From Agrobacterium rosae (GTDB lineage Bacteria; Pseudomonadota; Alphaproteobacteria; Rhizobiales; Rhizobiaceae), in contig NZ_NXEJ01000002.1 in NCBI RefSeq assembly GCF_002915175.1, positions 516,858 through 580,857 of the forward strand: a DNA stretch of 64,000 bases, written 5' to 3'. Numbering within the stretch: the stretch's first letter is position 1; the number at the start of each line of letters is the position of its first letter. Positions 8,873 through 24,807 of this stretch are shown here, in pieces. Below the pieces are notes generated by a model. It did no database searches, was not told where the DNA came from, and saw only the letters and a program-made list of their open reading frames with translations. The translations under genes were made by a program, and so were the position numbers.

Positions 8873-8932
8873 ATGAACACACAGTCGAAGAACATTGCAA
8901 TCTGGTGGTGGGGCAGCTTTACGCGGCCTTGA
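8873..8932 (+). CDS. trpL: trp operon leader peptide TrpL
   Basis: A 19-residue leader peptide, MNTQSKNIAIWWWGSFTRP, with three consecutive Trp codons (8903-8911). A terminator hairpin follows 25 bases after the stop, and the anthranilate synthase gene after that. This is the classic layout for attenuation by tryptophan supply: ribosome stalling at the Trp codons allows read-through. Attenuation of trpE(G) by a short WWW-containing leader is known in Sinorhizobium meliloti, where the peptide and leader RNA also act in trans. There is no Shine-Dalgarno, and the promoter spacing places +1 at the ATG, so translation is probably leaderless. The ORF is too short for standard gene calling. Confidence 0.9.
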   Translation: MNTQSKNIAIWWWGSFTRP

Positions 8933-8957
8933 GCACCCATGTCCTTTGACTAAGTCC

Positions 8958-8987
8958 AAGCCGCCCGAATTTTCAGGCGGCTTTTTT
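8958..8987 (+). terminator. trp attenuator terminator
   Basis: AAGCCGCC (8958-8965) pairs with GGCGGCTT (8976-8983), followed by a run of T. It lies between trpL and trpE(G) and is the expected termination arm of the attenuator. Confidence 0.88.
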
Positions 8988-9035
8988 GTTATTATGCCGC
9001 CTGTCATCGGGCTTTAGAAACGGGAAGCGGAATAG

Positions 9036-22628: not shown

Positions 22629-22787
22629 ATGGTAGTGAAATCTCCCAACAACGACGACAAAGCATCTAGTGATGTGCCATCTCTTATTAGAGGCGCAGAA
22701 TGGATCGACGTCTTGAAGGCTTTCTGGACTATAATGGTTTCGACTTTTAGGAATAATGGCAAGAACAAGAAAATTGACAACGAGTGA
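22629..22787 (+). CDS. Small hypothetical protein (52 residues)
   Basis: A 52-residue ORF 18 bases after the BenE stop, with GGAGGAG placed six bases before its ATG, so it is probably translated and part of the BenE transcript. The N-terminus is polar (MVVKSPNNDDKASSDVP). The middle is amphipathic and hydrophobic (EWIDVLKAFWTIMVSTF), and the end is Lys/Asn-rich (RNNGKNKKIDNE). I do not recognise a family. Its base composition is more AT-rich than the neighbouring genes. It ends just before the leuL promoter. Confidence 0.5.
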   Translation: MVVKSPNNDDKASSDVPSLIRGAEWIDVLKAFWTIMVSTFRNNGKNKKIDNE

Positions 22788-22797
22788 ACGTCTTGGC

Positions 22798-22826
22798 TTG
22801 CAACGAAAAATTTCGCCGCTTATAAG
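22798..22826 (+). promoter_or_regulatory. leu leader promoter
   Basis: TTGCAA (22798-22803) and TATAAG (22821-22826) are separated by exactly 17 bases. The predicted transcription start, seven to eight bases later, is the A of the ATG at 22834, the same leaderless layout as at the trp leader. Confidence 0.65.
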
Positions 22827-22833
22827 ATTCGGT

Positions 22834-22953
22834 ATGACCATTCGCACCGCAACCATTTTTGGCATGACCGCGCAGATTTCTGCGAAGGCTTGCCCATGCG
22901 GTGCACTCTCGCTTCTTAGCCTCGACCTTACACGCGGTTGCCGGGTCCAGTGA
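22834..22953 (+). CDS. Putative leuA leader peptide LeuL
   Basis: A 39-residue ORF whose distal part contains five Leu codons within eight positions (Leu 25, 27, 28, 30 and 32, in ALSLLSLDLT). Hairpins and a T-run follow, then leuA 138 bases after the stop. This is what attenuation by leucine supply would look like. Translation could start at 22834 (placed at the predicted +1, so leaderless) or at the internal ATG 22864. Attenuators before leuA have been predicted in alphaproteobacteria, but I cannot verify this one. The longer in-frame reading from 22756 would begin upstream of the promoter and is not supported. Confidence 0.65.
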   Translation: MTIRTATIFGMTAQISAKACPCGALSLLSLDLTRGCRVQ

Positions 22954-23025
22954 GGAGCGCCCGGCGGCCGAAAGCCCGCTGGTGCCAATGCTCCTCAACT
23001 CGAAATCTCACTTTATACTGGATTT

Positions 23026-23062
23026 AAGGCCCGTTTGGGCGCGCATTAGCACAGGGCTTTTT
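23026..23062 (+). terminator. Candidate leu attenuator terminator
   Basis: AAGGCCC (23026-23032) can pair with GGGCTTT (23054-23060) with one G-U pair, followed by TT. GCCC can also pair with the nearby GGGC (23037-23040). An upstream AAAGCCC (22971-22977) matches GGGCTTT perfectly and could give an alternative fold. A further arm pair, GAGGAGC / GCTCCTC, lies at 22952-22958 and 22990-22996. Confidence 0.45.
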
Positions 23063-23091
23063 CAGCCGCGATGCGTGTAAGGAGCAAGATT

Positions 23092-24807
23092 ATGGACGCC
23101 AAGACCTCTCAGATTTCCAAGGGCATGCCGGACGCGAACGTGAAGTATCGCCCATACCCGGTCATCGACATCAAGGACCGCACCTGGCCATCGAAAACCA
23201 TCGACAAGGCACCGATCTGGTGTTCGGTCGATCTGCGTGATGGCAACCAGTCGCTGGTCAATCCCATGGGGCATGACCGCAAGGCGCGCATGTTCAAGCT
23301 GCTGCTGGAAATGGGCTTCAAGGAAATCGAGATCGGTTTCCCTTCGGCCTCGCAGACGGATTTCGACTTTGCGCGCTGGTGCGTGGAGCAGGGCGGCGTG
23401 CCTGAGGATGTTTCCTTGCAGGTGCTGGTGCAGTGCCGTCCGGAACTGATTACGCGCACCTTCGAATCGCTGGAAGGTGCCAAGAACCCGATCATCCATT
23501 TCTACAATTCCACGTCCGAATTGCAGCGCCGCGTCGTGTTTGCCAAGGATGTGCCTGGCATAAAGCAGATCGCCGTCGATGCGGCCAAGATGATTACCGA
23601 CATGGCCGCCAAGGCCGGTGGCGGTTACCGCTTCGAATATTCGCCGGAAAGCTTTACCGGCACAGAGCTGGAAGTGGCGCTGGAAATCTGCAATGCTGTG
23701 GTCGAAGTAGTTAAACCAACGGCAGATAACAAACTGATCCTCAACCTGCCATCCACCGTTGAGATGGCAACGCCGAACATCTATGCCGACCAGATCGAAT
23801 GGATGTGCCGCAACATCGACAACCGCGAAAACGTCATCATTTCGCTTCATCCGCACAATGACCGCGGCACGGGCATCGCCGCCACCGAACTGGGCCTGAT
23901 GGCGGGCGCAGACCGCGTGGAAGGCACGTTGTTTGGCAATGGCGAACGCACCGGCAATGTCGATGTCGTGACGCTGGCCTTGAATATGTACACGCAAGGC
24001 GTTGATCCTGAACTCAACTGCCGCGATATCGAACACATCAAATCCGTGTATGAATATTCCAACGAGATGACGATCCCCGAACGCCACCCTTACGTGGGTG
24101 AACTGGTCTACACGGCCTTTTCCGGCTCGCATCAGGACGCAATCAACAAGGGTATGAAGGCGATCAAGATTGCCAACCATCCCGTCTGGGAAGTGCCTTA
24201 CCTGCCGATTGACCCCAAGGATGTCGGCCGTTCCTATGAGGCGATCATCCGCATCAATTCGCAGTCCGGCAAGGGCGGAATCGCCTATATCCTGCAACAG
24301 GATTACGGCATCAACCTGCCGCGCAACCTGCAAGTCGAATTCCGTGAAGAAATTCAGCGCATTACCGATGAAGAAGGGGTGGAGCTGCCCGCCAAGCGCA
24401 TCCACGAACGCTTCATCGAACAATATGTGACACAGCCAAATGCGCGCATCAAATTCGTCGATCACCACACCTATCCCGCTGGCGACTATAAGGGTGTCCG
24501 CGTGGTGGCCGCCGAAATCACCGACAATGGCGAGATCAAGCGTATCGAGGGCAAGGGTACCGGCCCAATCGATGGCTTTATCAACGCGCTGTCGACCTAT
24601 CTGGGCATCGATCTGTCGGTGAATGACTACTCCGAACACTCGCTGCAACACGGCTCCAACGCCTCGGCCATCGCCTATGTCGAGATGGAGCATCCGGGTG
24701 GGAAGCTGTTTGGTGCGGGTATTAACACGAATATCGTGGGTGCTTCGCTGGAAGCGATCGTGTCGGCGGCCAACCGCGTGCTGGAGCAGCGGGCGGCGAA
24801 GCCCTGA
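23092..24807 (+). CDS. leuA: 2-Isopropylmalate synthase
   Basis: A 571-residue enzyme that condenses acetyl-CoA with 2-oxoisovalerate, the first committed step of leucine synthesis. The DRE-TIM metallolyase motif is SVDLRDGNQSLVNP (about residues 44-57), and the metal ligands HPHNDRG follow near residue 257. The C-terminal regulatory (LeuA dimer) domain, about 430-570, is the site of leucine feedback. The length fits the longer class of LeuA. The ATG at 23092 has AAGGAG seven bases upstream, and the in-frame ATG at 23071 is rejected. Expression is probably controlled by the leader peptide and hairpins just upstream. Confidence 0.97.
   Translation: MDAKTSQISKGMPDANVKYRPYPVIDIKDRTWPSKTIDKAPIWCSVDLRDGNQSLVNPMGHDRKARMFKLLLEMGFKEIEIGFPSASQTDFDFARWCVEQGGVPEDVSLQVLVQCRPELITRTFESLEGAKNPIIHFYNSTSELQRRVVFAKDVPGIKQIAVDAAKMITDMAAKAGGGYRFEYSPESFTGTELEVALEICNAVVEVVKPTADNKLILNLPSTVEMATPNIYADQIEWMCRNIDNRENVIISLHPHNDRGTGIAATELGLMAGADRVEGTLFGNGERTGNVDVVTLALNMYTQGVDPELNCRDIEHIKSVYEYSNEMTIPERHPYVGELVYTAFSGSHQDAINKGMKAIKIANHPVWEVPYLPIDPKDVGRSYEAIIRINSQSGKGGIAYILQQDYGINLPRNLQVEFREEIQRITDEEGVELPAKRIHERFIEQYVTQPNARIKFVDHHTYPAGDYKGVRVVAAEITDNGEIKRIEGKGTGPIDGFINALSTYLGIDLSVNDYSEHSLQHGSNASAIAYVEMEHPGGKLFGAGINTNIVGASLEAIVSAANRVLEQRAAKP

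Follow-up and report, generated by a model that had tools for sequence, protein, structure and literature searches.

Introduction

The leu attenuator of enterobacteria acts via an intrinsic terminator. It is mentioned in PMC7298713 and PMC1183508, and leuA leader peptides have been reported for Corynebacterium glutamicum (PMC4046766 and PMC3890552). In Actinobacteria, Seliverstov et al. (2005, PMC1262725) described the LEU element of leuA, in which a leader carries a run of Leu codons and the base stem is composed of the Leu run and the Shine-Dalgarno sequence. Their account further includes a pseudoknot and an alternative hairpin upon the same base stem, and its part on leuA leaves the mechanism open. 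The passages of PMC8079986 on LeuL1, the leuA leader of Streptomyces lividans, present it as leaderless and devoid of a typical Rho-independent terminator, and PMC13236596 mentions translation attenuation of the cysteine genes of Mycobacterium smegmatis. Here we analyzed the leader that precedes leuA in a 64,000-nucleotide stretch of Agrobacterium rosae DNA (contig NZ_NXEJ01000002.1, hereafter termed the window).

We propose that this leader is a leucine-dependent translation attenuator, an alphaproteobacterial LEU-type element with a predicted response to leucine, and assign this reading a probability of roughly 0.65. Sequence comparison supports the leader open reading frame (ORF), the promoter geometry, the Leu-codon bias, two conserved stems termed A and B, and the lack of a conserved terminator, whereas folding models provide the base stem and its opening. 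A search of Rfam, as recommended by the initial annotation of this stretch, gave no match at the leuA leader at the gathering score, nor up to an E-value of 10. Our literature search, which did not extend to Vitreschak et al. 2004 and a 2010 attenuation study in Molecular Biology, found no paper describing a leucine leader before leuA of Rhizobiaceae. In addition, term searches of the main texts of PMC10117765, PMC3616915, PMC3738593, PMC10469942 and PMC2881028 found no "leuA". The leader would account for the probable control of leucine synthesis throughout a family of plant symbionts and pathogens.

Layout of the leuA leader

The elements of the locus are arranged as follows.

22798-22826, + strand: promoter TTGCAA-17 nt-TATAAG (TTGCAA at 22798-22803, TATAAG at 22821-22826), followed by 7 nt and then the ATG
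22834-22953, + strand: leader ORF of 39 codons plus TGA, MTIRTATIFGMTAQISAKACPCGALSLLSLDLTRGCRVQ, leaderless as judged from the promoter geometry
22906-22929, + strand: Leu-codon cluster CTC TCG CTT CTT AGC CTC GAC CTT, with Leu at codons -15, -13, -12, -10 and -8 from the stop
22911-22917, + strand: 5' strand of the putative base stem, GCTTCTT, complementary to the leuA Shine-Dalgarno sequence (RNAalifold, recoding control and cognate-pair tests)
22935-22945, + strand: 5' strand of stem A, CGGTTGCCGGG, within the last codons of the ORF
22952-22958, + strand: 5' strand of stem B, GAGGAGC, overlapping the stop codon (comparative alignment)
22960-22970, + strand: 3' strand of stem A, CCCGGCGGCCG, which includes the 5' half of the inner B stem, CCGGCGG (22961-22967)
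22976-22982, + strand: 3' strand of the inner B stem, CCGCTGG (GGTGG opposite CCACC in L049 and L054, and opposite CTACC in L067)
22990-22996, + strand: 3' strand of stem B, GCTCCTC (98.7% of cells paired at the five inner pairs, 95.1% and 93.4% at the two outer ones)
23055-23067, + strand: small hairpin GGCT-TTTTC-AGCC with a T-run, seen in single-sequence folds
23079-23085, + strand: leuA Shine-Dalgarno sequence AAGGAGC (AAGGAG at 23079-23084), the 3' strand of the putative base stem
23092-24807, + strand: leuA, yeast-type 2-isopropylmalate synthase (TIGR00970, 755.8 bits against a cut-off of 697.4)

The initial annotation had described a 39-codon leader ORF before leuA, placed behind a near-ideal promoter and carrying five Leu codons in eight; our re-examination confirmed its coordinates, with the five Leu codons at 22906 (CTC), 22912 (CTT), 22915 (CTT), 22921 (CTC) and 22927 (CTT). 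The warning that the ORF would be mis-started was also reproduced, as mechanical ORF calling places its start at 22756, upstream of the ATG at 22834. The leader ORF is not covered by any annotated gene in S. meliloti Ak57 or R. leguminosarum BIHB 1148 (L130 and L131), according to a plasmid gene table said to be incomplete.

Predicted pairing of the Leu run with the leuA Shine-Dalgarno sequence

The comparison covered 110 leuA loci: 30 from whole genomes of the same genus, among them that of the window, and 80 named loci, mostly of Rhizobiaceae in the broad sense. L032 and L033 were dropped as duplicates of L025 and L031, L106 was dropped from the promoter count, and six loci with an uncertain leuA start (L092, L093, L101, L103, L105 and L106) were left out of the structure statistics. 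The RNAalifold consensus of 29 Agrobacterium sequences paired positions 22912-22917 with 23079-23084, and in the consensus of 14 Rhizobium sequences the Leu run is likewise paired with the leuA Shine-Dalgarno sequence. By our own reading, an additional G-C pair might extend this base stem to 22911/23085.

Two controls bear on this pairing. Random synonymous recoding of codons -16 to -7, applied to 54 of the 56 non-redundant loci (two omitted for length), raised the modelled openness of the Shine-Dalgarno sequence from 0.248 to 0.411, the native sequence being lower in 49 of the 54. Moreover, when cognate pairs of Leu run and Shine-Dalgarno sequence were compared with swapped ones, 271 of 20000 permutations were equally good, with a median p of 0.01 for cluster representatives; the loci are related, and these pairing counts are not independent trials. 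Support for the base stem is moderate, and both of its strands slide.

The effect of a ribosome was modelled by masking 31 nt at each codon in 54 loci (L048 and L067 excluded for length). The mean openness of the Shine-Dalgarno sequence was 0.28 without a ribosome and 0.34 at about codon -17, reached 0.44-0.475 with the A site at codons -14 to -7, and fell again to 0.285-0.298 once the mask reached the final three codons and the stop (0.295 at the stop itself). The codon choice within the run is also biased: among 298 Leu codons at -16 to -7 of 56 loci, there are 177 CTT, 86 CTC, 20 CTG, 14 CTA and one TTG, so that CTT and CTC make up 263, whereas CTG accounts for 66% of the 2015 Leu codons of the leuA genes. 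The conserved output of the leader appears to be that its Leu run is complementary to the leuA Shine-Dalgarno sequence, which points to translation attenuation. The leucine attenuator of the initial annotation is supported as a leucine leader before leuA but not as a transcription terminator.

Promoter geometry and leader ORF among relatives

A Leu-rich leader ORF was found by script in 109 of the 110 loci, ending in ...LLLLGL-RGCRVR, ...LSLLSLDLTRGCRVQ, ...GLIGDRRVR or related forms, and the Leu codons are kept well outside Agrobacterium, which answers the conservation check asked for at the outset. In L106, from Bartonella, the script chose a wrong ORF, and the element was matched there (E-value of 2e-13) by R1, a covariance model built from 47 Rhizobiales sequences with no Actinobacteria in training.

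A promoter of the form TTG-(16-18)-TA, lying 4-8 nt ahead of the in-frame leader ATG, is present in 104 of 107 loci, with a gap of 6, 7 or 8 nt in all 104 and a 17-nt spacer in 101 of them. The exceptions are L003, which has an N at the site, L037 and L105. The same arrangement occurred on average in 2.3 and at most in 7 of 107 loci after mononucleotide shuffling of the upstream stretches (100 shuffles), and at 2 of 2301 other ATGs. In 55 loci, the pairing energy with the anti-Shine-Dalgarno sequence is -1.3 kcal/mol for the leader ATG and -5.5 kcal/mol for leuA, in agreement with the earlier claim that the leader lacks a Shine-Dalgarno sequence. Because the promoter-ATG arrangement recurs and the leader ATG is devoid of such a sequence, a start at or near +1 is probably a family-wide design, in which the promoter geometry would place +1 on the A of the ATG. 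A generic promoter scan, which requires T as the last base of the -10 hexamer, reported no + strand promoter at leuA.

The initial annotation had also pointed to the same design at trpL, and indeed TTGCCA-17-TAACAA-8 nt-ATG is found there with the ATG at 8873. The trpL leader (8873-8990) encodes the peptide MNTQSKNIAIWWWGSFTRP and carries a genuine intrinsic terminator. RcsR1 (RF02552) of Rfam gives a match at 8892-8987; as this match lies within trpL, the trp attenuator RNA and RcsR1 correspond to a single locus.

Of the 104 loci in which the ATG is anchored, 91 have a leader of 39-41 residues, and 25-28 codons precede the Leu run in the leaders of Rhizobiaceae. Within 29 Agrobacterium loci, codons -15 to -1 are invariant at every codon position, and 38 of the 69 sites upstream of them vary. 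The sequence ahead of the Leu run is free in this genus, with 9, 14 and 15 variable sites at the first, second and third codon positions, respectively. The constant length of the leader despite this free sequence perhaps reflects the length of the ribosomal tunnel or a matter of timing.

Conserved stems A and B

Stem A pairs the last codons of the ORF with the sequence 7-17 nt past the stop codon, and stem B pairs the stop region with a strand 38 nt downstream. In alignment A1, which consists of 61 loci and underlies the statistics of both stems, 98.9% of the cells are paired over stems A and B (99.9% for stem A alone), compared to 26-52% when the strands are slid by one to three columns. Two-sided changes occur in 30 cells, a count reached in none of 500 shuffles, and four pairs show such a change (12 of 500 shuffles); one pair of stem A is GC in 38, AU in 20 and GU in 3 of the 61 loci. 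RNAalifold recovered stem A unaided on a second alignment of 47 of the same loci. Because codons -15 to -1 are unchanged at all three positions in Agrobacterium, the conserved tail of the peptide is best explained by RNA pairing.

The mean energies of hairpin A and the nested hairpin B are -25.0 and -25.5 kcal/mol over 56 loci, with B clipped by the search pattern in a few loci such as L049, L082 and L108. As the inner B stem uses the 3' strand of A, stem A and the full hairpin B are mutually exclusive, and the alternative hairpins of the initial annotation were borne out in this form. By contrast with the full hairpin, the outer part of B could combine with stem A into a pseudoknot.

Proposed mechanism and alternative explanations

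We propose that transcription starts on the leader ATG and that ribosomes translate the 39-codon ORF without the help of a Shine-Dalgarno sequence. When leucine is ample, the ribosome would pass the Leu codons and depart, after which GCUUCUU would bind the leuA Shine-Dalgarno sequence AAGGAGC; the resulting base stem would enclose a compact core of stems A and B (either the pseudoknot or hairpin B alone), leading to weak translation of leuA. Once charged tRNA-Leu becomes scarce, the ribosome would halt on the Leu run and cover the anti-Shine-Dalgarno strand. The stalled ribosome would then let stem A form and leave the Shine-Dalgarno sequence open, and LeuA could be produced.

Several observations weigh against this proposal. 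The modelled effect is both small and irregular for the sequence of the window itself: openness is 0.29 in the free RNA and, with the mask at each of the five Leu codons in turn, 0.36, 0.19, 0.35, 0.41 and 0.45. The masking result also partly restates the pairing, given that the Leu run is itself the modelled partner of the Shine-Dalgarno sequence. The advantage of cognate pairs, at about 1 kcal/mol, is real but modest, and 20 of the 30 two-sided cells in stems A and B fall on one pair of stem A, which amounts to few independent events, since cells count sequences. CTT is moreover a rare codon, and its use equally fits rare-codon sensing, codon rarity having been discussed for attenuators in PMC1183508. 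Finally, the authors of PMC1262725, in what they write on the LEU element, question whether the Leu codons act as the sensor.

Among the alternatives, the one that survives best, although we consider it unlikely, is a Rho-coupled version in which the stalled or departing ribosome, together with the hidden Shine-Dalgarno sequence, alters the access of Rho, so that the main effect falls on transcript length without an intrinsic terminator. It requires no terminator, the leader stop lies some 110-165 nt from leuA in most loci, and PMC1262725 proposes Rho-dependent termination for the terminator-less cys leaders of Actinobacteria; Rho alone, however, leaves the complementarity between the Leu run and the Shine-Dalgarno sequence unexplained.

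We regard as improbable a second alternative, in which the core RNA binds a protein or another factor and the Leu codons are kept mainly as the anti-Shine-Dalgarno strand rather than as a sensor. The invariance of codons -15 to -1 at all three positions suggests such an RNA constraint, and the doubt voiced in PMC1262725 points the same way. By contrast, the frame, the start and the Leu identity are kept across divergent sequences, and the fixed placement of the promoter relative to the ATG is most readily explained if the ORF is translated.

The initial annotation had further inferred an intrinsic terminator and a transcript end near 23062, and these were not supported. The run TTTTT at 23058-23062 is real but can be interpreted as loop sequence of the GGCT-TTTTC-AGCC hairpin. 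In single-sequence folds, the loop of this hairpin is TTTTC in L002, TTTC in L012, CGAGA in L025 and AAAGA in L026, and the hairpin is absent from the consensus fold of 25 Agrobacterium sequences, a fold of weak energy on a gappy alignment. After the leader, 7 of the 56 non-redundant loci have a run of at least five T, as do 6 of the 30 Agrobacterium loci; thus the run is not kept even within the genus. A terminator-like site, itself weak, was found in one of the 56 (L055), by a finder with loops of up to 10 that does detect the trpL terminator of the window. A generic terminator scan reported none at the leuA leader and, its loop limit being 8, also missed the 10-nt loop of trpL, so it is not a clean control. 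An intrinsic terminator at 23055-23062 was therefore rejected, as the T-run is rare, terminator-like sites are almost absent and other loops replace the T-run in relatives; an intrinsic terminator is not conserved. Classical transcription attenuation, in which only stalling of a ribosome on the Leu codons would keep the transcript from ending near 23062, is the least probable of the alternatives given these counts, even though this strain has a Leu leader, alternative hairpins and a T-run and the trpL of the same window is terminated intrinsically. It follows that calling transcription attenuation takes more than a T-run and alternative hairpins next to a leucine leader.

Distribution of the element

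At an E-value of 0.001, R1 matched 184 of 199 genomes of the family, partly by construction as its training set came from the same group. Seven of the 15 family genomes without a match are only 1.0-1.6 Mb in size, and one of these seven, G044, carries leuA. Where the positions of both match and leuA were available (21 genomes), the match lies directly upstream of the gene on the same strand. Among 150 genomes of the order, six were matched, five of them in Rhizobiaceae and the sixth being L150 (E-value of 0.008), and among 289 genomes of the class there were four matches, namely the window's own, L133, L134 and L135; in these two runs the filters were stricter, at the cost of weak matches, and L113 was missed there and found otherwise. 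L134 and L135 were dropped as false matches, since they sit inside long ORFs with no LeuA match nearby.

L133, from another alphaproteobacterial family (LeuA identity of 58%), has an R1 match before leuA and a shorter leader, MHIFDGILLLGLIGARRA. In a set of 16 further leuA loci, R1 clearly matched before leuA in three (L133, L153 and L113, the last from another family of the order), weakly in L157 (E-value of 0.14) and partially, over a stem only, in L112 (E-value of 0.072), with none at an E-value of 1 in the other 11. A weak match lies ahead of a Cupriavidus leuA. L153 is a divergent leuA on a Shinella plasmid, with its own leader ending in LLLLLLRLIGDRWA upstream of the leuA at 601 (R1, 37.9 bits). 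One genome has, besides its normal match, a second, weaker one (34.6 bits; L151, G165:C45:138915-138985). Six loci from other families of the order (L114-L119) combine yeast-type leuA with a Leu-rich leader of a different kind, whose end reads LLLSRP or LLLSCP. R1 does not match these six leaders, which are perhaps another type of attenuator.

Because the matches span Rhizobiaceae, three of four Actinobacteria, L133, L113, L153 and, weakly, Cupriavidus, we tentatively consider a broader scenario, which we hold to be possible rather than probable. In this scenario the LEU element, instead of being actinobacterial, would be an ancient, leucine-dependent switch of translation that goes with yeast-type leuA in different phyla, and Rhizobiaceae would have gained a preamble of fixed length (25-28 codons) and free sequence.

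Neighboring ORF

Upstream of the leader promoter, a small ORF of 52 residues (MVVKSPNNDDKASSDVPSLIRG...) at 22629-22787, with a Shine-Dalgarno-like GGAGGAG, is located between a transporter-like ORF and the leuA leader. Beyond its own genome, its clear relative among the fetched loci is found only in L011 (58% over 37 residues). By analogy with L131, the transporter-like ORF probably belongs to the BenE family.

Comparison with known systems

Within the Rhizobiaceae, a counterpart in design is trpL/rnTrpL (RcsR1, RF02552), which shares the leaderless leader ORF and the same promoter layout; it differs in having an intrinsic terminator and in yielding a small RNA, as presented in PMC7298713. 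The enterobacterial leu attenuator likewise has a leader peptide with Leu codons ahead of leuA and a leader codon bias, but depends on an intrinsic terminator, none of which is conserved in the rhizobial leader. The cysteine system of M. smegmatis, as outlined in PMC13236596, has in common that pairing of an upstream ORF conceals the Shine-Dalgarno sequence and that stalling exposes it, and differs in responding to cysteine. LeuL1 of S. lividans is also leaderless, has five Leu residues and lacks a typical terminator according to the description in PMC8079986, whereas it is actinobacterial and only 15 residues long.

Compared to the LEU element as outlined in PMC1262725, the rhizobial leader shares a leader ORF with a Leu run, a predicted pairing between this run and the leuA Shine-Dalgarno sequence, and the absence of attenuator parts such as a terminator. 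A pseudoknot and an alternative hairpin are described there; here both helices are conserved with some covariation and may form together. The two also differ in phylum, in the sequences of the helices and in the 25-28 codons that lie ahead of the rhizobial Leu run, and the leader ORF has 39-41 codons in most rhizobial loci versus 13-16 in four actinobacterial ones. In these four leuA loci, taken from plasmid-collection records, we found a stem of 11-12 bp after the Leu run, a helix of 5-7 bp between the loop and a downstream strand, and a complementarity between the Leu run and the Shine-Dalgarno sequence of -8 to -17 kcal/mol, all as values without a control. Run with filters off over 14750 bases on both strands, R1 placed the leuA leaders of Nonomuraea (E-value of 0.0011), Tsukamurella (0.0096) and Nocardia (0.021) as the top three; the next match had an E-value of 0.28, and the Microbacterium leader was indistinguishable (4.2).

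We do not claim a transfer of leuA from Actinobacteria: a FastTree tree of 33 LeuA proteins, with low deep support, does not group Rhizobiaceae with Actinobacteria. As this tree does not join the two groups, common descent of the rhizobial and actinobacterial elements is not proven. Nevertheless, given the shared architecture and the ranking of three of the four actinobacterial leaders first by R1, the rhizobial leader appears to work like the LEU element and probably belongs with it, thus offering a large comparative set for that element in genetically tractable organisms.
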